Source: a virus
Length of the DNA: 64,000 bases
IMG/VR virus record: IMGVR_UViG_3300046787_000408
Coordinates: 186,001-250,000 of that record
Direction: 5' to 3' (one strand)
Below are positions 7,544 through 34,545 of this stretch, piece by piece. The number at the start of each line of letters is the position of its first letter. The stretch's first letter is position 1. The notes under the pieces were generated by a model. The model saw only the letters and a program-made list of their open reading frames with translations. It did not search any database and was not told where the DNA came from. The translations under genes and the position numbers were made by a program.

Positions 7544-7936
7544 ATGACTCTAGACGATACAGTGGCAACATGGAATCAAGCCGAACTTGTGCGCTTGCTA
7601 AAAAATGCACCCGGTACTCAATATCAAGAATCCGACGATGCCAACAAGGCAATCATGCGTGACTGGGTTCGAAGTTTGCTACAAAAAGGACCTGTCACTG
7701 TGATCTTTACCAAAGCAGACGGCACCGATCGTGAAATGCGCTGTACCTTGAACCCAGAACAATTACCCGAAGTCGTGCAAACAGTACCAGTTGATGGCAT
7801 TGTGCTTGAAAGCCGAAAGTCTCGCAAAGAACCAGATCCTCACAGTATTCGAGTGTTTGATCTTGACAAAAACGAATGGCGCAGTTTCCGTTTTGAACGG
7901 TTGCGCAAAGTCAGCGCCGAAATTGTGTTCGGCTAA
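7544..7936 (+). CDS. SH3-barrel (WYL_2/DUF2693-like) protein
   Basis: 130 residues. The segments PVTVIFTKADGTDREMRCTL and VFDLDKNEWRSFRFERLRKV are the two signature parts of the small phage SH3-like beta-barrel family PF10902. A variable N-terminal helix precedes them. Such proteins are frequent early-region genes of T4-like phages and may bind nucleic acid or regulators; the role is unproven. Shine-Dalgarno AAAGGGA. Confidence 0.8.
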   Translation: MTLDDTVATWNQAELVRLLKNAPGTQYQESDDANKAIMRDWVRSLLQKGPVTVIFTKADGTDREMRCTLNPEQLPEVVQTVPVDGIVLESRKSRKEPDPHSIRVFDLDKNEWRSFRFERLRKVSAEIVFG

Positions 7937-22364: not shown

Positions 22365-22556
22365 ATGAGTAAAGGATCAAGACCACGTCCATTGAGTATT
22401 CCCATTGCGGAACTCAACAACAGACTGGACACTATCTTTGGCGAGAAGCCACCAAAGCCGCGCTGGGTGCCACCACCTTTGCCGGAAGACATGCAAAATA
22501 TCGAATCATCATTTGAAAAGCAACTTGGTAAAAATATCCCACAAGGAAGAACATGA
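22365..22556 (+). CDS. Small proline-rich conserved phage protein
   Basis: 63 residues: MSKGSRPRPLSIPIAELNN then IFGEKPPKPRWVPPPLP. The MSKGSRxRPxS...FxxNxDxIFG pattern is a small phage protein I recognise without a known function. Weak TAGGAA ribosome site. It overlaps the clamp-loader start at ATGA. Confidence 0.7.
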   Translation: MSKGSRPRPLSIPIAELNNRLDTIFGEKPPKPRWVPPPLPEDMQNIESSFEKQLGKNIPQGRT

Positions 22557-23476
22557 AACAATTATGGGTAGAACAGTATAGGCCAAACACCGTAGACGGA
22601 TATGTGTTTGTTGATGACTCGCAACGAGAACAAGTACAGGCCTGGATTCGTGATGGATCCATTCCGCACTTGATGTTGTCGGGGTCAGCAGGCACAGGTA
22701 AAACTACTCTAGCCAAGCTCTTGATCAACGAGCTGGGAGTAGACGAGTACGATGTGATGTATGCTAACGGTTCTAAAGAAGCTCGCAAGGTAGAGTGGGT
22801 AGACAAGCTGATCAGCTTTTGCCAAACCATGCCGTTTGGCAAGTTCAAGGTGGTGCTTATTGACGAAGCAGACTACATGAACCCAAACTCGGTGCAGCCT
22901 GCCTTGCGTAATCTAATGGAAGACTATTCCGCTAGTGTGCGCTTTATTCTAACTTGCAACTTTCCCAACAAGATTATTGCTCCTTTACACAGTCGTTGTC
23001 AAGGTTTTCACATTACCAAGACTGATCACACAGAATTCACTGCTAGAGTTGCCACTGTGCTGGTAACTGAAGGCGTAGAGTTTGATCTTGATGTACTAGA
23101 CACTTATGTCAAAGCAACTTATCCTGATTTGCGTAAGTGTTTGAATCTCACACAAATGAACAGTCAGACAGGTACATTGAGTGCTCCTGGTGACAGTGAT
23201 AAGTCAGTCCGTGACTGGAAGCTGGACTGTGTGGACTTGTTCAAACGTGGCAAGGTACGTGAGGCTCGCACCTTGTTGTGCCAAAGCTCTAGTCCAGAAG
23301 AAGCAGAAGAAGTGTTCCGCTGGATGTATGACAACTTGGATTTGTGGGGTGACACTGTGGAGCGACAGGATCAAGCTATTGTGATCATCCGTAACGGACT
23401 CGTAAACAACAACGCTGTGGCAGATGTAGAGATCAACTTGAGCGCTACACTAATTGAACTGGGACAAATTGAATGA
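22553..23476 (+). CDS. Clamp-loader AAA+ ATPase subunit (gp44-like)
   Basis: 307 residues, close to T4 gp44 (319). WVEQYRPNTVDGYVF opens the domain; Walker A is SGSAGTGKTT (about 43-52), Walker B VVLIDEAD (about 99-106), sensor ILTCNFPNKI and the SRC arginine-finger motif HSRCQGF follow. Together with a small partner it would load the sliding clamp on primed DNA for the phage polymerase. Confidence 0.9.
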   Translation: MKQLWVEQYRPNTVDGYVFVDDSQREQVQAWIRDGSIPHLMLSGSAGTGKTTLAKLLINELGVDEYDVMYANGSKEARKVEWVDKLISFCQTMPFGKFKVVLIDEADYMNPNSVQPALRNLMEDYSASVRFILTCNFPNKIIAPLHSRCQGFHITKTDHTEFTARVATVLVTEGVEFDLDVLDTYVKATYPDLRKCLNLTQMNSQTGTLSAPGDSDKSVRDWKLDCVDLFKRGKVREARTLLCQSSSPEEAEEVFRWMYDNLDLWGDTVERQDQAIVIIRNGLVNNNAVADVEINLSATLIELGQIE

Positions 23477-23787
23477 GATATTTACTGTTAACTTATTATA
23501 CCAAACCTGATGGAAAAATTGACGAGTCCATGGCTGTGAGCAAGCGGGTCAAGACCAGCGATTTACAAACAGCCAGCGTGATCTTGGACTTTAAAAAACT
23601 GCAAGTGGTCAAGGCCAGCATGGGCGGTACTACTGTACCACGTGACTGGGATCGAATTGTGAGTTATTATCATCAGCACTATGCATCAACAATCGAACGA
23701 TTGTTCAAAGAAAACGGCTACGAAATTGTCAAGCCCGAAACTGCAACGCAAGATACTGTTGCAGTAACATCTGATCAACCAGCTTGA
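23473..23787 (+). CDS. Small conserved protein after the clamp loader
   Basis: 104 residues, overlapping the ATPase gene at ATGA. MRYLLLTYYTKPDGKIDESM...TASVILDFKKLQVVKA resembles a small protein that follows the clamp-loader gene in many T4-like phages. It does not look like T4 gp62 (187 residues), so the small clamp-loader subunit is either elsewhere or replaced. Confidence 0.75.
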   Translation: MRYLLLTYYTKPDGKIDESMAVSKRVKTSDLQTASVILDFKKLQVVKASMGGTTVPRDWDRIVSYYHQHYASTIERLFKENGYEIVKPETATQDTVAVTSDQPA

Positions 23788-23816: not shown

Positions 23817-24704
23817 ATGATTAAAAAACTTCTATCCATCGCAGTGCTGCTAACATCGTTGGCAGCAAATGCACAAGAAAAAATCACAGTGCAATGGGCG
23901 TTTAGTCCAAGCTCTACCTCAGCAAACTCAGTGCGTGTTATATGCGATGAGTTGAACAAAATGCAAAACAAATATACATTTTTGTTTTCAAACAAACCAG
24001 GTGCTGGCGGAACTATTGCTGCCAATGCAGTAACTGCTAGCCCAGAAAATACCTTGGTTGCAATGAGTTCAAGTTTTATTGTTAGGCCTTACTTTGAAAA
24101 GACCGAACCCACACACAACTTGGACAATTTTGTGCCGGTACTGGTACAAGGTATTGGCAGTCCGTTGTCAATCGCTAGCGCCAAACACACCACAATGGCC
24201 GAAGTGTATGCCAACCCCAAACTCACTATTGGTGTAAGTGGAGTTGGTAGTATTGGACACTTGACTGCTAATGAAATCACAAATGTCAACAAAACAGCAA
24301 CTATTGCAAACTTCAAGAGCAATATTGAAGCTGCCACTGCGGTTGCAGGTGGTCATGTGGACATTTCTGTAACGTTTGCTTCAGATGTAGCACCGTTTGT
24401 GGAGTCTAATAAACTTGCTGTGCTGGGACGAACTGGTCCAGGGACTCAACTCAAACAGATTCCCGACGCAGAAAAACTAGCGGCAAACTATGCTATTTTT
24501 GCCAGTACTGCAATGAGTGCTGATAGGTTTAAAGAACTACATCAGTTGTTGGCCACAGTAAATGCCAGCCCAGCAGTGGTCAACAGTTATAAATCAGATC
24601 AATTGCATCCAGTGGCGCTTAACATTGATCAGTCTCGTGCCTGGTACACAAACGAACGTGCTTTTTGGAAAAAGCAGGTTGACAAGATTTCTAAAACAAA
24701 ATAA
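23817..24704 (+). CDS. TctC/Bug-type periplasmic binding protein 1
   Basis: 295 residues. The N-terminus MIKKLLSIAVLLTSLAANA|QEK is a clear Sec signal peptide with an AxA cleavage site. The mature part has the Bug fold markers NKPGAGGTIAAN, LTIGVSGVGSIGHL, GGHVDISVTFASDVAPFV and KLAVLGRTG. Bug proteins capture carboxylates for tripartite tricarboxylate transporters. No membrane TctAB genes are seen, so the product would have to work with the host permease or as a scavenger. It lies among replication genes, which is odd. Confidence 0.87.
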   Translation: MIKKLLSIAVLLTSLAANAQEKITVQWAFSPSSTSANSVRVICDELNKMQNKYTFLFSNKPGAGGTIAANAVTASPENTLVAMSSSFIVRPYFEKTEPTHNLDNFVPVLVQGIGSPLSIASAKHTTMAEVYANPKLTIGVSGVGSIGHLTANEITNVNKTATIANFKSNIEAATAVAGGHVDISVTFASDVAPFVESNKLAVLGRTGPGTQLKQIPDAEKLAANYAIFASTAMSADRFKELHQLLATVNASPAVVNSYKSDQLHPVALNIDQSRAWYTNERAFWKKQVDKISKTK

Positions 24705-24721
24705 CTTATCTATAGTGTAAA

Positions 24722-24747
24722 ACTTGCACATCCTAGGATGTGCAAGT
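24722..24747. terminator. Perfect palindrome, likely bidirectional terminator
   Basis: ACTTGCACATCC followed by its mirror around TA gives a 26-base perfect inverted repeat between two convergent genes (TctC plus strand, PhoH minus strand). There are no long T-runs, so efficiency is uncertain. Confidence 0.6.
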
Positions 24748-24754
24748 GTATAGG

Positions 24755-25492
24755 TTATTTGCTGTATAACTTTAGTACATCTCCTATGATCTTGTGTCGC
24801 TGTACATCACGTGCTTCCATAGCACAAACAGCGATACCGTTAACTTGATATCTTTGCAGACGATCACACAAGTCCATCAAGCCGTTGTCGCCATTGTTGC
24901 GATCAGCTTGCTCAACGTCTCCTGTTATCACAATCTTGCTATTCGTACCTATGCGGGTCATTAACATCTTGGCCTGGGCTGGAGTTGCATTTTGCATTTC
25001 GTCAGCTATAATCCACGAGTTTTTAAAGGTGCGGCCGCGCATGAATGCCAGAGGCGCAATTTCCACTACCTGATCTTCTATCATGGCTGCAATGTCCTGG
25101 GCGCGATAATATTCACGCATGACATCCAGCAAAGGACGAGTCCATGGTTCCATTTTGGCCACTAGGTTGCCGGGGAGGAAACCGTGTTGTTCCCCTTCTA
25201 CGCCTACCGCAGGGCGTGTCATAACGATTCTATCACAAGTTCCTTCTCTAAGTGCTTTTACTGCTGCTTGCATGGCTAGATAAGTTTTGCCAGTACCTGC
25301 AGGGCCAGTTGTGACTACAATATGTTGCGCTGGATCTAAGAGAGCCATTACCAAGCGTTCTTGATTTCGTGTTCGAGGGATCAAGTCTATGCGGCGCTGT
25401 GCCACTTTAGGTGCTTGGTTAAAACTAATGGTGTTTTCTTGGGTCTGCGTCATACGTTTGTTGTGTGCCTTGGCGGCGCGGTTTCTACTCAA
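24755..25492 (-). CDS. phoH: PhoH-like ATPase
   Basis: 245 residues. The Walker A motif GPAGTGKTYLAM, TRPAVGVEGEQHGFLPG, the Walker B region WIIADEMQNAT and VITGDVEQAD are the PhoH family. PhoH proteins are ATPases linked to RNA metabolism and common in marine and freshwater phages. A TTG start at 25492 is supported by AGGAG eight bases upstream; the alternative ATG at 25453 has a poorer site. A late-type hexamer lies at 25531. Confidence 0.92.
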   Translation of the reverse strand: MSRNRAAKAHNKRMTQTQENTISFNQAPKVAQRRIDLIPRTRNQERLVMALLDPAQHIVVTTGPAGTGKTYLAMQAAVKALREGTCDRIVMTRPAVGVEGEQHGFLPGNLVAKMEPWTRPLLDVMREYYRAQDIAAMIEDQVVEIAPLAFMRGRTFKNSWIIADEMQNATPAQAKMLMTRIGTNSKIVITGDVEQADRNNGDNGLMDLCDRLQRYQVNGIAVCAMEARDVQRHKIIGDVLKLYSK

Positions 25493-25530
25493 AGTGTGTA
25501 CTCCTAGTTGTGTCCTTGCTTGGACCTAGA

Positions 25531-25536
25531 TATTTA
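25531..25536 (-). promoter_or_regulatory. Late-type TAAATA promoter for phoH
   Basis: Minus-strand CGTAAATATCTAG, 38 bases upstream of the TTG start. Confidence 0.45.
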
Positions 25537-25643
25537 CGGTCACAAAAAAATCAAGATATGTGGACACATTTCTCCTGTTTGTTCGACTAAGTATTAGGCT
25601 GTCCACAGTCAAATATCAAATTCTACCACTGTAGCCATTTGAC

Positions 25644-25649
25644 TAAATA
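25644..25649 (+). promoter_or_regulatory. Late-type TAAATA promoter close to the start codon
   Basis: GACTAAATATACGACCATG: seven bases between the hexamer and the ATG at 25657, and no Shine-Dalgarno. Confidence 0.5.
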
Positions 25650-25656
25650 TACGACC

Positions 25657-26256
25657 ATGGACAAAGAACTTTTTAAGAACAATGAAGATTATTGGCAGGT
25701 CGCCGACAACATCCGCGACATCTACATGTCAGAAGGAACTATTACCACACTACTTGACTTTGAGCGAGTGCTTGATGAAGTAGATGTGTATGCGTTCAAG
25801 AACTGGGAAATTGGTGAACTAGTTGCTGGTCCTGAAATCTCAAAGTACAGAGTGGCTTGCACCTTTATGTGGCCTGAAAAACTCATGCCTGATCCACGTG
25901 GCGGCCGTAGACTGTTACCGTTTGATTGTGAAGTCAGTTATCGCAAGGTAGAAATGAAAATACCAATCAAGATTGAGGACCCGTCAGACTACCGCGAAGG
26001 CACCAAAAAAGCTCGCATTATTGAAAAGCCTGTGTGGCTGGTAGAAATAGTCATGCCCAAGAGTCTCATGAGTGATATTCGTACTGGTAGTATTGAAATG
26101 GAAGACCAAGACATTGATCTTGAAGAATTGGATCAAGCCTATGAGCAGGATCTTGACAAGGAAGAGTCACAAAGCGATGAGCAAGCACAAGATGCACAAG
26201 CAGACTTGACAGCTCAACCAGGACAAGCCCCACAACCCGCAGCAGGAGCAATTTGA
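25657..26256 (+). CDS. Conserved T4-like protein, head-region neighbour
   Basis: 199 residues; ATG 25657 is used in preference to an in-frame TTG at 25639 that overlaps the promoter. YWQVADNIRDIYMSEGTI, LDFERVLDEVDVYAFKNWE, and MPDPRGGRRLLPFDCEVSYRK look well conserved, and a long acidic, Gln-rich tail follows. I recall similar proteins in T4-like cyanophages but not their role. It overlaps the next gene as TGATG. Confidence 0.75.
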   Translation: MDKELFKNNEDYWQVADNIRDIYMSEGTITTLLDFERVLDEVDVYAFKNWEIGELVAGPEISKYRVACTFMWPEKLMPDPRGGRRLLPFDCEVSYRKVEMKIPIKIEDPSDYREGTKKARIIEKPVWLVEIVMPKSLMSDIRTGSIEMEDQDIDLEELDQAYEQDLDKEESQSDEQAQDAQADLTAQPGQAPQPAAGAI

Positions 26257-26795
26257 TGTTTGAACATTTATTAGAAGGTCTGCAATACAAAGACCTAGAC
26301 GGCATGATGAAGAGCACCGTTCACATTGATGAATTTGCCAGCAAAATGGGCGATGATGATGACATCATTGTACTGAGCTTTTTTGTACGTGATCTACAAG
26401 CAGCCAAGGATCTTGTAAACTGGTTTGAAAAGGGCTATGACTTTGTGTTGGACGCTGATCGCTCACCAGGTGAAATCAAACCCAGTCGCTACTTGGTGTA
26501 TGTAGAGATTCGTCGTCGCTCAAGTGCGCCCGGAGCTGTACAAACATTGTTGGACGATCTTGGCACCTTGACAGAATTTGAACCCGGTGACTGGCAGATG
26601 CGTTACCAAGGTCGCACACAGCCCTGGAGCGAAGAAGCATTTGCCAAAGCAGTGCCCTTGACTCCCAATGCATACAGACAAGCCAATCAAGGCGAACTAA
26701 ACGAAATGCGAGCAGCAGCAGGCTTGGCACATCGTCCAGTACATGTACCTTCAGCAGAAGTACGTTCACTACAAAGTATGGCAGGCATCCGATGA
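26256..26795 (+). CDS. Conserved protein, possible capsid-associated
   Basis: 179 residues. The start MFEHLLEGLQYKDL contains LLE|G, compatible with the T4 prohead-protease rule (L/I-x-E before A, G or S), so the first seven residues might be trimmed. The core (IIVLSFFVRDLQAAKDLVNWFEKGYDF...PSRYLVYVEIRRR) is alpha/beta. It sits between a conserved T4-like gene and two genes with capsid-targeting N-termini, which favours a head role. The following gene overlaps at ATGA. Confidence 0.72.
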   Translation: MFEHLLEGLQYKDLDGMMKSTVHIDEFASKMGDDDDIIVLSFFVRDLQAAKDLVNWFEKGYDFVLDADRSPGEIKPSRYLVYVEIRRRSSAPGAVQTLLDDLGTLTEFEPGDWQMRYQGRTQPWSEEAFAKAVPLTPNAYRQANQGELNEMRAAAGLAHRPVHVPSAEVRSLQSMAGIR

Positions 26796-27928
26796 GAGCA
26801 AACCAATTTATATCCAATGATAGTGACGCAATGCGCAAACCAACTTCAGAGTCTGTGGCAGGACCTGAAAAGTGCTGGCCCGGATACCGCAAGGTAGGAA
26901 CACAACCTGGCACAGGTAAGAACGCTGGCAAGCGTGTGAACGACTGCGAAAAGATCAAAGAAGATGACGTGGCTGAAGGCATTCTTAATAAAATTGCCAA
27001 CAAAGTAATGGGTGCTGCTCCGGAACAACCAAAGTACAAAGTTGGCCAACGAGTCAAGTACGAAACAAGTCCGCAGCAACCTGATTGGGAAGATGGCGGC
27101 AGTGGCGTCGGCGTAATAACTTCTTACAAGAATGGTCACTATATGATTAACGGTAATCCAGTTAATCACTTTGAGATTAAAGGTGTGGTAGAGCAAGGCG
27201 TGGCGGAAGGCTGGGTTGATACTATCAAAAATATATTCAAGCGTAAACCAAAGGACAATCGAACCGTGTTTGACAGAGATCCAGAAGCAATGCGTGAATT
27301 TGAACGATCAGGTGGATACGAAGCCGGCTTAGATATCATGGGTTGGCAAATAGGTTGGTTTGCTGCCGAACACGCCCAAGGTGATACGATGCAACAAGCG
27401 TTTTCAAAGTTATATTACGGCGGCGGTAGCCCAATGCCGTTTGATAATCGTTCATTCAAGCTAGCATGGGTAGCATACAACAAACACCACGGTCCTCAAA
27501 TAGCAGAGCAAGGTGTGGCGGAAGGCAACTATGACAGAGATGACTACTACAATGCACGTCAAGGTAGAGAATACGGCAAAGACCTAACTGCCACAGGCTA
27601 TGGCGGTGATGGATCAAAAACTCGTCGAGATGACATCTTCAAAGGACAAAGCAAACGCTTGCCCGCAGATCCTTTTGCTCGTACCAGTGGTGCTGTGCCA
27701 AAAAGTGGTACAGGACGAATTCACAGCAATGCACTACCTGGCGAAATGGATGAAGCCAACGATCAAAAGATTGGTGGACGTTATGATGCTGACGACTTTG
27801 ATGACATGGTGTCAAGACTGAAAAAATTAGCGGGCGCAGGTCCCATGAAAACAGTATACGATCCTAACCGTCGCGTGTACCGCAACATGCCCACAGCACA
27901 ACAACCTGCACAACAGCCCAAAAAATGA
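26792..27928 (+). CDS. Capsid-targeted polyprotein with three VAE|G sites
   Basis: 378 residues. The N-terminus MRANQFISND is a variant of the MRAxEF[I/V]xE tag found on four other proteins here and similar to the T4 capsid-targeting peptide. Internal putative prohead-protease sites are VAE|G at residues 62/63, 139/140 and 244/245; the last two are QGVAEG encoded by a near-identical 21-nt repeat. Cutting would release pieces of about 62, 77, 105 and 134 residues: a Cys- and Lys-containing CWPGYRKVG peptide, an SH3-like piece (YKVGQRVKY...GVGVIT), a helical piece, and a tail. No enzyme motif is seen. Confidence 0.75.
   Translation: MRANQFISNDSDAMRKPTSESVAGPEKCWPGYRKVGTQPGTGKNAGKRVNDCEKIKEDDVAEGILNKIANKVMGAAPEQPKYKVGQRVKYETSPQQPDWEDGGSGVGVITSYKNGHYMINGNPVNHFEIKGVVEQGVAEGWVDTIKNIFKRKPKDNRTVFDRDPEAMREFERSGGYEAGLDIMGWQIGWFAAEHAQGDTMQQAFSKLYYGGGSPMPFDNRSFKLAWVAYNKHHGPQIAEQGVAEGNYDRDDYYNARQGREYGKDLTATGYGGDGSKTRRDDIFKGQSKRLPADPFARTSGAVPKSGTGRIHSNALPGEMDEANDQKIGGRYDADDFDDMVSRLKKLAGAGPMKTVYDPNRRVYRNMPTAQQPAQQPKK
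27191..27211 (+). repeat. GVAEG-coding 21-nt repeat, copy 1
   Basis: GAGCAAGGCGTGGCGGAAGGC, in frame, encoding EQGVAEG. One T-to-C difference from the most common form (copies 2 and 5). Confidence 0.85.
27506..27526 (+). repeat. GVAEG-coding 21-nt repeat, copy 2
   Basis: Encodes EQGVAEG in frame; base-for-base identical to copy 5 at 59964. Confidence 0.87.
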
Positions 27929-28212
27929 GAGCTAACGAATTCATTTCAGAAAAATGGAGCAAAAAGTACAAACGCTCCATTGACTGTTCACGACCACAAG
28001 GATTTAGCCAACGTGCGCATTGCCAGGGTCGTGCAAAAAATGAAGATGAACAACTGGATGAGTTGCAATTTCTAGGTTCTGAATGCACCAAGGACTGTTC
28101 AGGACACCGTGCAGGCTACGACTGGTCAGCACGTAAAGGCAACATTCAAGGCAACAGTCCTTATAGCCCAAGTTTCAATAAAGGCGCTAATCTCCGCGCT
28201 GCTGGGAAGTAA
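27925..28212 (+). CDS. Capsid-targeted small Cys-rich protein
   Basis: 95 residues, overlapping the polyprotein gene at ATGA. The tag MRANEFISE|K fits I-x-E cleavage, leaving a mature peptide with SIDCSRPQGFSQRAHCQGR and CTKDCSGHRAGYDWS. Both Cys motifs recur in small T4-like phage proteins I recognise by sequence but cannot name. The mature product would be basic, with five Cys in spaced groups, perhaps metal-binding. Ends in a terminator. Confidence 0.78.
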   Translation: MRANEFISEKWSKKYKRSIDCSRPQGFSQRAHCQGRAKNEDEQLDELQFLGSECTKDCSGHRAGYDWSARKGNIQGNSPYSPSFNKGANLRAAGK

Positions 28213-28947
28213 TCACCGTTTGGTATACACAAAATACAACCTACCTAGTTCGGTAGGTTCTTTTTTGAATGTGTCTAAAGTTAGGTCGTAGCGTTCAGCA
28301 AACTGATTCACAATTTCAAATGTCCAAGGAAAGATATCCACATACGGACCTGTCTTGTGTGGAATACCTGGGTTGGCTCGCAAAAAGAACTTGCCTCCGG
28401 GACGTAACAGATTTACACAATGCGCAAATCGTGCTTCAATTTCGTCTTGTGAATTAAAGTTAATGCTGCCCAAGGCAATGATCACATCATGTGATTCAGG
28501 CTTGACTTTGTAGTCCAAGATATCTACTTCGTAATCTGCTGCATCATTGTAAGGATCAATGCCAATAATGTTGTTGATGCGTCCCTTGAATGGATGGTAT
28601 CCGCAGCCCACATCCAGTACCTTTTCAGGGTTGAGTTTGTTTACTTCTTCTACCAGAGCCCAACCTGAGTGATCGTACTCGCCTGTTCTAGGACGCCAGA
28701 TTTCACTAAAGAAACGATGTGTGTAACGTTCACTTAGATCCGCAACAATATCTTGTAGTGTACCGCGATACTCGCAAGGTAAAGCAAGCTCTGCTTCTAC
28801 TGCATCCTTGAACTTTGAGTATCGTGCTGGGGTCCATGGTAGCAAATTAACCACAGTGTCTGACGTGATAGAAATATCTGCATACTTGGGCAAATTAAAT
28901 GCTTCTTGCAAATTTTTTGTAATTAGGTTAAAAATTTTGGTATTCAT
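28213..28947 (-). CDS. SAM-dependent methyltransferase
   Basis: 244 residues. Motif I VLDVGCGYHPF, then IIGIDPYNDAADYEVDI, the motif IV region HDVIIALGSINF and LLRPGGKFFLRANPG form a class I Rossmann methyltransferase. The N-terminal 90 residues are helical and may bind the substrate. The target cannot be read from sequence; neighbours encode sulfotransferase-like and amidinotransferase proteins, which hints at small-molecule or surface-glycan modification. A late-type hexamer lies 35 bases upstream. Confidence 0.85.
   Translation of the reverse strand: MNTKIFNLITKNLQEAFNLPKYADISITSDTVVNLLPWTPARYSKFKDAVEAELALPCEYRGTLQDIVADLSERYTHRFFSEIWRPRTGEYDHSGWALVEEVNKLNPEKVLDVGCGYHPFKGRINNIIGIDPYNDAADYEVDILDYKVKPESHDVIIALGSINFNSQDEIEARFAHCVNLLRPGGKFFLRANPGIPHKTGPYVDIFPWTFEIVNQFAERYDLTLDTFKKEPTELGRLYFVYTKR
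28238..28266 (+). terminator. Intrinsic terminator after the Cys-rich gene
   Basis: AACCTACC (28238-28245), loop TAGTTC, GGTAGGTT (28252-28259), C, then six T. It lies within the 3' end of the convergent methyltransferase gene. Confidence 0.85.
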
Positions 28948-28981
28948 AGGAAATTTTGATATATAAGTTAGATTTCAGTAC

Positions 28982-28987
28982 TATTTA
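28982..28987 (-). promoter_or_regulatory. Late-type TAAATA promoter for the methyltransferase
   Basis: Minus-strand CCTTAAATAGTAC, 34 bases upstream of the ATG. Confidence 0.4.
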
Positions 28988-28997
28988 AGGAGTTTGC

Positions 28998-29960
28998 ATG
29001 AACATCAAAAAAATTATAGCCATACTAGCACTTGTACCAGGACTGTCACTAGCCTGGCAACCTACAAAACCTGTTACAGTGGTATTCCCCAACGGACCGG
29101 GTGCTGGCAACGAAATCTCATTCCGCATTGCAGCTGATATTGTAGAAAAGTCCACTGGTGTAGTGTTCAAGCCCGAGTATCGTCCAGGTGCTGATGGCAA
29201 CATTGCTATGAATCACTTTGTAACAGTACCGCGTGACGGGCATACCATTAGTGTACCTGCTTGCCAATCAAATTGGGTAACTCCTGAAATCTGGTATCCC
29301 AACATGATCAAGTACAGCCCTATGGATCTAGAACCTGTTGCTAACATTGCTCGTAGTCCTCTAGCGTTCTGGGCACACCCTAGCAGCCGGATCAATACGC
29401 CAGAAGAATTTGTGGCTGCTATTCGTAATCGGCAACGAATGACCGTGGCCATTGGCGGTGGCGGGCACAAACTGGCTGTAGAATATCTTGTGGATAAAGT
29501 AAGTGTAGCAGGCAGTGATAATCTGCAAACTGTTTCTTACAAAGGTCCTGCACAGGCTCTATTAGATGTCATGGGCGGACATGTAGAATTTGGGGTAACA
29601 CCTGTAGCAGTGGGCTATCCGCATGTGCAAACTGGCAAGCTCAAATTCATTGGTATAGCTGATACCCGCACTTTGCCCGGGCTTGAACACATTCCTTTGA
29701 TGAGCAAGGCTGCTCCAGGACTCAGCATACATGGCTGCTGGAACTTGGCCTTGCCGCCAGGCACCCCACAAGAGATTCAAACTTGGTATCGTGATCAGTT
29801 TGTACCAGCAATTCGTTCAGCTGAAGCTGCTGCCAAGTTCAAAGAAAACATGATGTATACTACTCCTGCTGAGCACAGTGCTGCAGGTGTTAGAGCCAGC
29901 ATGGCACGCCTGCAACAGACATGGCAACCAATTGCTCGCAGAATTGATCCTAACAAATGA
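28998..29960 (+). CDS. TctC/Bug-type periplasmic binding protein 2
   Basis: 320 residues. The signal peptide MNIKKIIAILALVPGLSLA precedes WQPTKPVTVVFPNGPGAGNE, the standard Bug opening. YRPGADGNIAMNHF, VAIGGGGHKLAVEYL, VMGGHVEFGVTPVAVG and KLKFIGIADTRTLPGLE complete the family pattern. Only moderately similar to the copy at 23.8 kb, so it is probably a separate acquisition or an old duplication. Shine-Dalgarno AAGGAG. No transporter membrane subunits nearby. Confidence 0.92.
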   Translation: MNIKKIIAILALVPGLSLAWQPTKPVTVVFPNGPGAGNEISFRIAADIVEKSTGVVFKPEYRPGADGNIAMNHFVTVPRDGHTISVPACQSNWVTPEIWYPNMIKYSPMDLEPVANIARSPLAFWAHPSSRINTPEEFVAAIRNRQRMTVAIGGGGHKLAVEYLVDKVSVAGSDNLQTVSYKGPAQALLDVMGGHVEFGVTPVAVGYPHVQTGKLKFIGIADTRTLPGLEHIPLMSKAAPGLSIHGCWNLALPPGTPQEIQTWYRDQFVPAIRSAEAAAKFKENMMYTTPAEHSAAGVRASMARLQQTWQPIARRIDPNK

Positions 29961-30568
29961 AATACATCTTTGTAGCCGGTGCTCCGGGCTCTAAATGGAG
30001 CAGTGTGGTCAAAAACATCTACTACAGTGCAGACATTGATCGCAGTGACCACACAGACCAACGCACCTACGAACACAACGGGCAACACCAACTGCATCTA
30101 GGTGCGTACTGGGATCCAGGCATGGAGTTTGGCAATTTTTTTGACCAGCTAGATCAATACACCAAGGAACAATGTGAACATGAATTTGATAAGCCATTTT
30201 CAGGTACAGGAATACGTATCATCAAAAGTCACTCGTTTGCGCATCATGTGGCAACGCTTAGAGAACGATGGCCTGACTGTGCCATTGTACTGGTTCATCG
30301 CAGCAGTGATTCTTGCCTGGGTTGGTGGGTAAGATGCGGCGGCTTTGATATCCAGTATCCTAGTTATCGCGGTTACTACAAAGATTTGCCTACCATAGGC
30401 AGAATTATTGACGAACAAAATGCCAGCATTGAACAAGCAATGTACGACTATGACGGCACAGAACCACTATCCAATCGTGCATTAGCACAGCAACTGGGAT
30501 TAGAACCGCCACCACTGCAATATGCACAAAACTATGCTGTAGCAGACATACGGGTAAAAGTGATATAA
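29957..30568 (+). CDS. Sulfotransferase-like P-loop protein
   Basis: 203 residues. FVAGAPGSKWSSV near the N-terminus resembles the 5'-phosphosulfate loop, and IRIIKSHSFAHHV plus CAIVLVHRSSDSCLGWW the 3'-phosphate-binding part of PAPS-dependent sulfotransferases. Similar small proteins occur in T4-like cyanophages. Likely sugar or small-molecule sulfation, not proven. Overlaps the TctC gene at ATGA. Confidence 0.7.
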   Translation: MKYIFVAGAPGSKWSSVVKNIYYSADIDRSDHTDQRTYEHNGQHQLHLGAYWDPGMEFGNFFDQLDQYTKEQCEHEFDKPFSGTGIRIIKSHSFAHHVATLRERWPDCAIVLVHRSSDSCLGWWVRCGGFDIQYPSYRGYYKDLPTIGRIIDEQNASIEQAMYDYDGTEPLSNRALAQQLGLEPPPLQYAQNYAVADIRVKVI

Positions 30569-30624: not shown

Positions 30625-31692
30625 ATGTCCTTACCCATAATCAATAGTTACACCAACTGGGCACCTTTAGAAGAAGTCTGGTTAGGGGATGTGTACCCAG
30701 CCAGTTGGTACGATCACTTGTCGTCAGAAGTGCGCGATTGTTTTCATGAGATTACTGAAAAAACACAGCAAGACCTTGCTGTGATTCATCACAAGCTAGA
30801 AGAACTAGGTGTCCATGTGGTAAGGCCAGAGTACCACAACATTGAAGACTTCATGGATCCTCGTGGCTATTTGCGCAAGCCTGATATTACTCCCAGGGAC
30901 AATTTTCTAGTTTATCAAAATACACTATTGGGCAACGTGATGTCATGGAAAAACCCATGGAAATCAGCACTGGATCGATATCGTCGAGACTCACGCTGTC
31001 ACATTGCCCAGCCGCCAGAATTTGAACATTTGGGTTGGATGTGCGGTGCTAACACTGTGAGAGTTGGGAACGATCTTTATTTGGACATAATGCCCTGTCA
31101 CAGTAAATCCACCAATGAACAAAAACACCAAGAGTTTGTTGACAAAGTTGCACCCCTGTGGCCCAACAGCAGAATACATTTGCTGGCCAACGGCGGACAT
31201 GTTGACGGTTGTTTTGCTGTGGCCAAACCAGGTGTGCTGATCACCAGCAGATATTTTGATGCTTATGATAGAACATTTCCTGGTTGGTATTGTTTAAATA
31301 TTGCCAAGCCTGAATTTTTTGATCGTCGGCATGCTGCATTTAGAGCAGGTCCCGGACATAATGGCAAATGGTTCGTGCAGGGCATGGCCGATCGATTGGC
31401 ATTTCAAGAGCATGTTATCAAGCATGCACTGGACTGGATTGGTGACTACACTGAAACGTTCTTTGAAGTCAATTGTTTGGTGGTTGACGAAAAGAATATT
31501 CTTATGCTGGGCGAAAACGAAAAAGTTGCTAGAGAACTTGAACGCCAAGGTATCACTGTGCATTGGATGCCGTTTAGAACTCGCACATTCTGGGATGGTG
31601 GCTTGCACTGTTTGACTCTGGACATACGTCGTCGAGACTCCGCTGTGGACTTGTTTCCTGAACGTGGTTCGCAACAGGTGTTTACCTACTGA
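30625..31692 (+). CDS. Amidinotransferase (GATM/StrB-like)
   Basis: 355 residues, a full-length enzyme. NGGHVDGCF carries the catalytic His region and WDGGLHCLTLDIRRR the catalytic Cys, matching GG(F/L)HCxTxDxRR of glycine and inosamine amidinotransferases; the N-terminal WAPLEEVWLGD and CGANTVRVGNDLYL also fit. The family moves an amidino group from arginine to an amine acceptor. The acceptor here is unknown. Followed with a one-base overlap by a P-loop-like gene. Confidence 0.88.
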   Translation: MSLPIINSYTNWAPLEEVWLGDVYPASWYDHLSSEVRDCFHEITEKTQQDLAVIHHKLEELGVHVVRPEYHNIEDFMDPRGYLRKPDITPRDNFLVYQNTLLGNVMSWKNPWKSALDRYRRDSRCHIAQPPEFEHLGWMCGANTVRVGNDLYLDIMPCHSKSTNEQKHQEFVDKVAPLWPNSRIHLLANGGHVDGCFAVAKPGVLITSRYFDAYDRTFPGWYCLNIAKPEFFDRRHAAFRAGPGHNGKWFVQGMADRLAFQEHVIKHALDWIGDYTETFFEVNCLVVDEKNILMLGENEKVARELERQGITVHWMPFRTRTFWDGGLHCLTLDIRRRDSAVDLFPERGSQQVFTY

Positions 31693-32264
31693 TGACACCA
31701 GTAGTGATCAGTTATTATCCTGGCTCGGGCGGTAATCGCTTGGCATGGCACCTGTTGAATCTTGACTGGAAGTCCAGCCCAGACTCTTCACTGCATGCTA
31801 GTCCTCACCCTATACCGTCTATAAACTACAGCGATCGAGACATTAGGCCTTATCCTGTTGCAAGCACTCGTGTGGTAACATGCACTAATTTCATCGAACT
31901 TACTCATTGTGTCAACAGCGAGTTATTGAAATATCATTTTCCCGGCCGACGAATTATCAAGATAAAAAGTCATTTAGCCAGTAGTCTTAGTCGTCATTGG
32001 CAAGTTTTTGGCCAAGGCTTTTTTGAACAAGAAATTAGAAAGATAGGCAAATCTTTTGCATTAACATTGAGCATAGACTGGCACTGGAAATATTATCAAC
32101 AAACTGGAGTAGACTGGGAAGCGGATCAATTGTACGACTTGACCAATCCTTCTGATGAATTCAGCATGTTCATGCAAGAAAATATTGCACAAAATCGCAG
32201 TCAGGACTTTGACGACTTTGTTTTTACCTGGCAAAAGTTCAAAAAACGCAGCTTAGATTTTTAA
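31692..32264 (+). CDS. Sulfotransferase-like protein, divergent
   Basis: 190 residues. VISYYPGSGGNRLAWHLL is a glycine-rich loop like that of sulfotransferases and IIKIKSHLASSLSRHW resembles the IIKSHSF segment of the protein at 29957. The rest is helical and Trp-rich. Start overlaps the amidinotransferase stop (TGATGA). Substrate unknown; could equally be another nucleotide-binding fold. Confidence 0.6.
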   Translation: MTPVVISYYPGSGGNRLAWHLLNLDWKSSPDSSLHASPHPIPSINYSDRDIRPYPVASTRVVTCTNFIELTHCVNSELLKYHFPGRRIIKIKSHLASSLSRHWQVFGQGFFEQEIRKIGKSFALTLSIDWHWKYYQQTGVDWEADQLYDLTNPSDEFSMFMQENIAQNRSQDFDDFVFTWQKFKKRSLDF

Positions 32265-32778: not shown

Positions 32779-33047
32779 TGAAAATAACTGTGTTGTTATT
32801 TGCAGTAGTGTTGTGTGGATGTACCACAGTGGTACCTGTGCGACAACAGTTTCCTGACGCTGTGCCAGAACTAAAGCAATCTTGCGAAGCATTGATGACT
32901 ATCAAAGGTGATTCTGCCAGCATTACTGAACTGTTAAAAACTGTAGTGGAAAATTACACAAGGTATCATCAATGTGCTGCTCGTGTTGACGGATGGCAAG
33001 CATGGTATGATGCACAAAGAAAAATATTTGAAGGGTCTAACAAATGA
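32778..33047 (+). CDS. Lipoprotein, o-spanin-like
   Basis: 89 residues. MKITVLLFAVVLCGC|TT is a lipoprotein signal with lipobox LCGC, so the mature protein would be lipid-anchored at Cys15. The mature part is helical (TITELLKTVVENYTRYHQ-like region with CAARVDGWQAWYDAQR). It shares one base with the i-spanin-like gene and overlaps the endolysin gene at ATGA. Probably the outer spanin. Confidence 0.75.
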   Translation: MKITVLLFAVVLCGCTTVVPVRQQFPDAVPELKQSCEALMTIKGDSASITELLKTVVENYTRYHQCAARVDGWQAWYDAQRKIFEGSNK

Positions 33048-33667
33048 GTTCAATACTCACATTACAACAACTAAAACAACTGGTACCAGGAAATCCCTAT
33101 ATTGACGACTGGCATGAAGCACTTGATCAGTTGCTGGATGATTACGGAATTGATACTCCCCAGAGAGTAGCACACTTCATTGCACAATGCGCCCACGAAT
33201 CAGGCGGGTTCAAGTTCATTAAAGAAAACTTGAACTACTCAGCAGCAGGACTCAACAACACTTTCCGTAAGTATTTTCCCACACTGGAATCTGCCAAGCC
33301 TTATGAACGCCGGCCCGAAATGATTGCCAACAAGGTGTATGCCAACAGAATGGGCAACGGTGACGAAGCTTCGGGTGATGGCTGGCGCTATTGCGGACGT
33401 GGGCTAATTCAGCTTACAGGCAAAGACAACTACACATTCTTTGCAGGCAGTCTAGGTATTCCTGTAGAAGAAGCTGCTGACTATTTGGCCACGTTTGAAG
33501 GTGCAGCACAAAGTGCCTGCTTCTTCTGGGAACAAAACAACTTGAATCGCTTTGCTGATGCCAATGACGTCAAGGGCTTGACTCGTGCTATCAATGGTGG
33601 ACAGATTGGCCTAGCAGATAGACAAAAACACACTGAACATGCACTGCACGTTTTAGGAATGCATTAA
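33044..33667 (+). CDS. GH19-type endolysin
   Basis: 207 residues. FIAQCAHESGGFKFIKENLNYSA has the catalytic Glu of glycoside hydrolase family 19; RYCGRGLIQLTGKDNY and the second acidic region (RRPEMIANKVYANRMGNGDE) fit phage lysozyme/chitinase-type endolysins that cut peptidoglycan. No signal peptide, so export needs a holin (candidate at 34597). Overlaps the o-spanin-like gene. Confidence 0.92.
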   Translation: MSSILTLQQLKQLVPGNPYIDDWHEALDQLLDDYGIDTPQRVAHFIAQCAHESGGFKFIKENLNYSAAGLNNTFRKYFPTLESAKPYERRPEMIANKVYANRMGNGDEASGDGWRYCGRGLIQLTGKDNYTFFAGSLGIPVEEAADYLATFEGAAQSACFFWEQNNLNRFADANDVKGLTRAINGGQIGLADRQKHTEHALHVLGMH

Positions 33668-34545
33668 TGGCCATTGTAGTAGGACCAGGAATCACAATTG
33701 GCAACGGAATTACCGTACAGAGTATAGCCGTTGCCGGCCAACAGGCTTTTACCACAGCAGGTACATTTTCATGGACCGCACCAGCAGGTGTTACGTCAGT
33801 GTCTGTAGTAGCTGTTGGCGGTGGTGGAGGTGGGACCAGAAGCACTTCTGGCGGAGCAGGTGACGGTGGTAATAGTTATTTTATTGATACCAGCACAGTA
33901 GCAGGACTTGGCGGCTCACGGGGAGGTGGCAGTTTTACTACAGGTGCTAATGCTTTCCCATATGGACAAGGTGGCGGGTTCGCAGGCGACGGTGGCGGCA
34001 ATGGTGGTTTCAGTTTAGGTGGCACTAGCGTATTCTATGGCGGTGGCGGTGCAGGCGGTTACTCAGGCAATGGCGGCAACGGTGGCGCAGGCAATGGATC
34101 TGGTGTAATTACTGTTGCAGGCGGCAACGGCACAGGCGGTGCTGCGGGTGGTGGTGCTTGGGGTTCCGGCGGCGGAGTTGGCATATTAGGCGAAGGCACA
34201 AGTGGAGCTGGTAGCACAACAGGAAGTGCAACGCCATTGAAGAACGCTAAAGGCGGCTCAGGTGGAGCCAATGGTAATACATATACTACTACCAACTTTA
34301 CAGGCGCCTTATACGGTGGTGGCGCTTGCGGTACTTACACTACTAGTGGCGGTGGTGGCGGATTAGGGTGGAAGAACAGCATAGCAGTAACACCCGGACA
34401 ATCATACACTGTTGTAGTTGGAGCCGGTGGTACAGGCGAAGCATCATCTGGGACAAATTTCTGCGGACCGGGTGGCGGAGGTGCTGTACGTATTATTTGG
34501 GGCGATGGTCGTGCGTTCCCTGCAACAAACACAGGAGACGTTTAA
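33667..34545 (+). CDS. Glycine-rich tail adhesin
   Basis: 292 residues. The N-terminal module VVGPGITIGNGITVQS resembles the start of the lectin-like protein at 35122 (GGGITIGGGISFVS), indicating a shared docking tag. The body is dominated by Gly runs (GGGGGGT, GGNGGAGNGSG) like T4-like gp38-type adhesins, which form polyglycine sandwiches with variable loops for receptor binding, and ends in GGGGAVRIIWGDGRAFP. Confidence 0.82.
   Translation: MAIVVGPGITIGNGITVQSIAVAGQQAFTTAGTFSWTAPAGVTSVSVVAVGGGGGGTRSTSGGAGDGGNSYFIDTSTVAGLGGSRGGGSFTTGANAFPYGQGGGFAGDGGGNGGFSLGGTSVFYGGGGAGGYSGNGGNGGAGNGSGVITVAGGNGTGGAAGGGAWGSGGGVGILGEGTSGAGSTTGSATPLKNAKGGSGGANGNTYTTTNFTGALYGGGACGTYTTSGGGGGLGWKNSIAVTPGQSYTVVVGAGGTGEASSGTNFCGPGGGGAVRIIWGDGRAFPATNTGDV

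Follow-up and report, generated by a model that had tools for sequence, protein, structure and literature searches.

Bacterial orphan Bug proteins, TphC included, are usually encoded apart from the membrane components TctAB and beside the enzymes for which their ligand is the substrate (PMC5812351, PMC8556258). In phages, a comparable case is PstS of cyanophages, an exported binding protein of T4-like phages whose permease is not phage-encoded (PMC6359870), and a tctA domain has been reported on SUP05 viral contigs that were called by non-reference methods (PMC4164917). Beyond these SUP05 domain matches, no paper on phage Bug or TctC proteins was found in the open-licence PMC literature, which is without preprints and most subscription journals, nor did that literature yield a description of the cassette, pocket or function of a phage PBP2_Bug_TTT protein. 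Here we analyse a stretch of 64,000 nucleotides (the window), bases 186001-250000 of the 299,983-bp IMG/VR virus record IMGVR_UViG_3300046787_000408, which carries two genes for TctC/Bug-type solute-binding proteins, named Bug1 and Bug2.

With the orphan Bugs BugD, 2dvz, Bug27, TphC and AdpC, the phage proteins share the fold (Z 28-37.5), the Pfam TctC family, a Sec signal and the PGAxG loop, and they too sit apart from TctAB and beside enzymes. They differ in being ~20-24% identical to these proteins, in an altered PFxAGGxxD loop, in the absence from Bug2 of the Thr155/Ser156 residues, and in forming phage lineages of their own. The likeness to cyanophage PstS lies in an exported-type binding protein on a T4-like phage without the permease, but the phage Bugs belong to the tripartite tricarboxylate transporter (TTT) class and not to the ATP-binding cassette class, have no close host copy and are linked to enzymes, and some of their relatives have a phage-encoded permease. 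As in a complete TTT system (TctABC), five related phage contigs cluster an intact TctA with a Bug-like gene; unlike such a system, no TctB was found, a PP-loop ATPase and often a porin belong to the cluster, and the studied phage is itself without TctA. The full-length TctA operons on these jumbo-phage contigs also differ from the SUP05 report, which rests on a domain match. A PBP2_Bug_TTT protein of uncultured Caudovirales (UniProt/BFVD), of the same family as Bug2, is known by database annotation alone. Phage Bugs were thus already in databases, and it is the modules, the frozen pocket and the phage TctA operons that look undescribed.

Two exported-type Bug proteins in a T4-like jumbo phage record

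Pfam and phrog profile searches placed a T4-type clamp loader at 22553-23476 of the window, a PhoH gene at 24755-25492 on the minus strand and an endolysin gene at 33044-33667. The closest match of the clamp loader (52%) is to the Pseudomonas phages PA5oct, MIJ3 and Paride (285-288 kb), and on this gene evidence the 299,983-bp record is therefore a T4-like jumbo phage. The preliminary description had reported two TctC/Bug genes with clean signal peptides on a phage, and both observations were borne out: the two open reading frames are intact, score above the curated cut-off of Pfam TctC PF03401 (27 bits) and have phage core genes on either side, and on inspection both sequences plainly begin with Sec-type signal peptides. 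The whole record contains no TctC gene besides Bug1 and Bug2. Their features in the window are as follows.

23817..24704, plus strand: Bug1, exported TctC/Bug-type solute-binding protein, 295 aa (Pfam TctC, Bug structures by sequence, phage-only clade)
23817..23873, plus strand: Bug1 Sec-type signal peptide MIKKLLSIAVLLTSLAANA, then mature QEK (by inspection of the sequence)
28987..28992, plus strand: strong Shine-Dalgarno sequence AAGGAG of Bug2 (sequence; similar in relatives)
28998..29960, plus strand: Bug2, exported TctC/Bug-type solute-binding protein, 320 aa (Pfam TctC, AlphaFold model, phage relatives, dN/dS)
28998..29054, plus strand: Bug2 Sec-type signal peptide MNIKKIIAILALVPGLSLA, then mature WQP (by inspection of the sequence)

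Bug2 matches Pfam TctC with an E value of 3.5e-21 (76 bits), and its AlphaFold model, built from 34 phage sequences, has a mean predicted local distance difference test score (pLDDT) of 91.8. The eleven top structural matches of the model are all Bugs (Z 28-37.5 over ~290 residues), among them the terephthalate-binding TBP, TphC, BugD, 2dvz, Bug27, AdpC, MatC and Polaromonas TctC, whereas the next family reaches 17; the top VIA scores are Z 37.5 to TBP, 37.0 to 2dvz and 36.9 to 5oei. Bug2 is under strong purifying selection, with a ratio of nonsynonymous to synonymous substitution rates (dN/dS) of 0.05-0.12 in the least diverged phage pairs. Bug1 matches Pfam TctC with an E value of 1.5e-13 (51 bits), and a search with its sequence recovers solved Bug structures, with Bug27 at 8.3e-10, a fold assignment made by sequence only. 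Its start is the ATG at 23817, with an in-frame TTG at 23784, and no clear Shine-Dalgarno sequence was seen upstream of the start. By inspection, signal peptides are kept in nearly all phage Bugs examined. A promoter-like motif, TATATAAG, at 28960 upstream of Bug2 was set aside: only close relatives share it and it is unique in the window, so that timing cannot be read from it.

An altered ligand loop and a frozen pocket

Pocket and loop positions are given in TphC numbering (PMC8556258). The PFxAGGxxD motif is said to be highly conserved across TTT binding proteins, and its Gly34 and Asp37 are invariant in all 43 bacterial Bugs sampled. In phage Bug2, Gly34 is replaced by Ala and Asp37 by Glu in 50 of 50 sequences; in the Bug1 lineage, Gly34 is mostly Asp, and Asp37 is replaced by Ala in eight of nine sequences. 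The PGAxG loop is kept, as PGAGG (PGAGGT) in Bug1 and as PGADGN in 49 of 50 Bug2-lineage sequences (PGVDGN in the other one). The earlier statement that both proteins carry full Bug signatures was therefore too strong, since PFxAGGxxD is altered in each although the PGAxG loop persists.

Eight TphC positions that vary among bacterial Bugs (30, 31, 36, 86, 150, 179, 197 and 242) are fixed in 50 of 50 Bug2 sequences, as Asn32, Gly33, Asn38, Ala88, Gly153, Pro184, Pro202 and Gly246, and Bug2 is without two residues at the Thr155/Ser156 position. Pocket-aligned positions of Bug2 are invariant in 18 of 19 cases against 88 of 282 elsewhere (Fisher p 3e-8, a descriptive value, as the pocket positions were picked from the TphC mapping after that mapping had been seen). 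The pocket residues are thus not destroyed; they are replaced and frozen. Because the pocket positions are fixed and the loop is replaced, we read the ligand of Bug2 as probably specific and different from the ligands of characterised Bugs.

Two phage-held lineages distant from bacterial proteins

Searches of IMG/VR recovered 51 relatives of Bug2 (identity 63-91%, many on contigs of 100-350 kb) and a Bug1-type group of 52 viral loci, together about 99 distinct viral contigs. Near-copy contigs inflate these counts and the locus counts given below for gene neighbourhoods. In a 72-sequence tree, Bug2 falls in a phage-only clade with support 99 and Bug1 in a separate phage-only clade of ten (99 in the Shimodaira-Hasegawa-like approximate likelihood-ratio test, SH-aLRT). 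The tree separates the two proteins, but the approximately unbiased (AU) test does not reject a single phage clade (p 0.74). Among annotated phage genomes, Bug2 has a single distant match (25%) and Bug1 has none. The labelled Caudovirales protein, BFVD/UniProt A0A6J5T247, is 68% identical to Bug2, with a TM-score of 0.94.

No close relative of Bug1 or Bug2 was found in any bacterium searched. Among the best 80 bacterial relatives, the closest proteins are 25-33% identical and belong mostly to Burkholderiales, together with a block of Roseomonas-type Acetobacterales. The suggestion of a Burkholderiales host is plausible, but at such identities the proteins do not identify a host. Because of this low bacterial identity and the phage-only clades, recent capture from a host is rejected for both Bug genes; they belong to long-held phage lineages. 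Host DNA or assembly error as the source is ruled out by the number of viral contigs and by the phage core genes flanking both sides.

Other genes say little about the host. When the AhpC of the record was compared with the Limnohabitans family (30 genomes), a single match reached 66% and the others stayed below 40%, which is of no use for naming the host; the porin of one relative matches only on Burkholderiales plasmids (27-35%), a weak likeness to Burkholderiales porins. In the studied phage, genes for an AhpC-type peroxiredoxin, a class II aldolase-like protein and an AhpD-like protein lie close together (L068 12357-14461, G000:282357-284461). In G010, the record behind locus L032, Bugs at 33698 and 83229 and porins at 7644 and 109109 lie on opposite strands; this contig is probably an inverted duplicate, an assembly artefact, and its gene counts are to be halved.

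Permease and porin genes in related phages

The preliminary description had noted the lack of TctA and TctB partners. This holds for the 299,983-bp record, in which neither was found, but not for the phage group, as full-length TctA occurs on the five related IMG/VR contigs mentioned above, each time clustered with a Bug-like and a PP-loop gene. The phage TctA proteins read are 433-441 aa long and contain the AEAANN motif, and in four of the five contigs the cluster is flanked by a Porin_4-type porin gene upstream and by a phage gene of the MoxR type downstream. Porin_4 was detected in six of 22 related records; the studied record has neither a Porin_4 porin nor a DctP gene.

L101 6982-10210; L102 6250-10599; L103 6908-10197; L288, L290, L291, L292: phage TctA operons (Bug-like gene, TctA, PP-loop ATPase; porin upstream in most; without TctB)
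L104 5106-5981; L106 11649-12530; L102 6250-7089: Gram-negative Porin_4 porins on jumbo-phage contigs

Enzyme genes beside the Bug genes

Bug2 lies in a conserved cassette, whose genes in the window are listed here with the gene that follows.

28213..28947, minus strand: methyltransferase-like gene, 244 aa, divergent from Bug2 (weak Pfam Methyltransf_25, 3.2e-4)
29957..30568, plus strand: sulfotransferase-like P-loop protein, 203 aa, overlapping the Bug2 stop by ATGA
30625..31692, plus strand: amidinotransferase-like gene, 355 aa (phrog_25854, 3.1e-9)

The methyltransferase-like gene is upstream and divergent in every Bug2 locus whose contig reaches that far, and 49 of the 51 loci have the sulfotransferase-like gene after Bug2, in most cases overlapping it by four bases; contig ends cut off the other two. 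The triad stays intact despite rearranged surroundings (for example L011, L027, L032 and L039). Pfam Sulfotransfer_3 matches ten of 16 members of the sulfotransferase-like family weakly, below the cut-off; the model of this protein has a pLDDT of 82, and its best VIA match is tyrosylprotein sulfotransferase (TPST, Z 10.7), with adenylate kinases close at 9.3.

Most relatives continue with a 2-oxoglutarate (2OG)-oxygenase-like gene, whose HxD...H...R motif was read from the sequence and which has no Pfam match. Many (L021 2860-3663 and ~15 others, about 16 loci) add a gene resembling adenosine 5'-phosphosulfate (APS) kinase fused to a nucleotidyltransferase-like domain; lying downstream of the sulfotransferase-like gene, this fusion is possibly a phage supply of 3'-phosphoadenosine 5'-phosphosulfate (PAPS). 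In some relatives, a glutamine-amidotransferase-type gene is inserted after Bug2. In the window, the place of the 2OG-oxygenase and APS-kinase genes is occupied by the amidinotransferase-like gene and a second P-loop gene (30625-32264), a pair also present in L025. The amidinotransferase-like protein is 28% identical to the product of a gene annotated as glycine amidinotransferase in Synechococcus phage S-SCSM2R; Campylobacter phages, a cyanophage and a marine single-cell virus carry distant relatives of it.

Bug1-type loci have other neighbours. A PP-loop ATPase with the SGGxDS motif is encoded within the fetched stretch of 27 of the 52 loci, in 19 of them less than 250 bp from a Bug. This family of 330-440 aa, which recurrently accompanies Bug genes in these phages (alignment A1), gave no significant Pfam or PDB match, with a faint likeness to QueC, ThiI and PAPS reductase; the PP-loop gene of the studied phage (record 285017-286162, L068 15017-16162) has no adjoining Bug. 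A DctP-type binding protein is encoded nearby in 26 of the 52 loci. The phage DctP proteins examined begin roughly where a mature protein would, and the in-frame sequence upstream encodes no convincing signal peptide; on this basis the DctP of these modules has apparently been relocated to the cytoplasm.

L055 9061-10014; L104 6945-7910; L039 677-1687 and 5209-6261; L237, L248, L251, L267 and others: signal-less DctP proteins, of the tripartite ATP-independent periplasmic transporter (TRAP) type, near Bug and PP-loop genes

Proposed role of the phage Bug proteins

Import is the best-supported reading of these genes. The intact genes, the fold of Bug2 and the selection on it, the phage-only lineages, the constant neighbourhoods, the frozen pocket and the TctA and porin genes of relatives are observed; export, ligand binding, transport, the class of ligand, the link to the enzymes and the host are inferred. 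We consider it somewhat probable that the Bugs are exported, bind a specific metabolite and pass it to a TctA permease, for the infection or for neighbouring phage enzymes. In the infected cell, Bug1 and Bug2 would be exported to the periplasm, where each would bind one particular small metabolite (probably an anion such as a carboxylate) and hand it to a TctA-type permease, which would be host TctAB in this phage and phage TctA in some relatives. The ligand might feed the infection directly or serve adjoining phage enzymes as substrate, candidates being the sulfotransferase-like and methyltransferase-like proteins for Bug2 and, in relatives, the PP-loop ATPase for Bug1-type genes. A PstS-like role through host transporters had been proposed for the two proteins. 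Its anatomy fits, the record encoding a predicted exported-type binding protein without its permease, and it gains strength from relatives in which TctA and a porin are also encoded, but a host transporter is only a candidate partner, and some relatives encode their own permease. More tentatively, T4-like jumbo phages may carry exchangeable uptake-and-use modules, made up of a porin, a Bug, TctA and a PP-loop or other enzyme, that would form their own import route for a non-canonical ligand, the Bugs of the window being periplasmic parts that would work via a host permease.

Several observations weigh against import. The record has no permease gene of its own, TctA was found in only three of 26 records tested and TctB in none of 21, and with PFxAGGxxD altered, neither ordinary dicarboxylate binding nor docking to a host TctA can be assumed; the sulfotransferase and methyltransferase assignments are also weak. 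A sequestering or other non-transport role in the periplasm, in which a Bug would hold a metabolite or a modified product, buffer a toxin or block the receptor or transporter of another phage, would suit the fact that most records link a Bug to enzymes and not to permeases, as well as the frozen, non-canonical pocket, and the signal-less DctP of the same modules implies that binding proteins there do not serve import alone. We nevertheless regard such a role as unlikely: the Bugs keep their signal peptides, and the adjoining enzymes appear cytoplasmic, so that they would miss a periplasmic ligand unless it were imported.

We give even less credence to signalling, whereby a secreted Bug with its metabolite would engage a host sensor kinase or periplasmic receptor and alter host regulation. 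There is a precedent in Bordetella, where citrate-bound BctC acts on BctE, and surplus Bugs have been thought to signal (PMC5812351); the missing permease and the altered ligand loop are in keeping with this. In relatives, however, the binding protein comes together with TctA and a porin, which points to uptake, and no sensor gene was seen adjoining a Bug. That the genes are accidental passengers, either functionless recent host genes or misassembled host DNA, is highly improbable. Bugs are abundant in Burkholderiales, with 65 TctC genes in a single Limnohabitans genome, but the many viral contigs, the phage-only clades, the purifying selection, the 25-33% bacterial identity and the flanking phage core genes all argue against it.

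The known phage uptake genes, chiefly cyanophage pstS, are single host-like genes. In the phages described here, whole binding-protein families have radiated within phages, tied to given enzymes and in some cases accompanied by an inner-membrane permease and an outer-membrane porin. On this view, the import of nutrients during infection would be a trait built into phages beyond cyanobacteria, with a ligand that could be found by direct screening.

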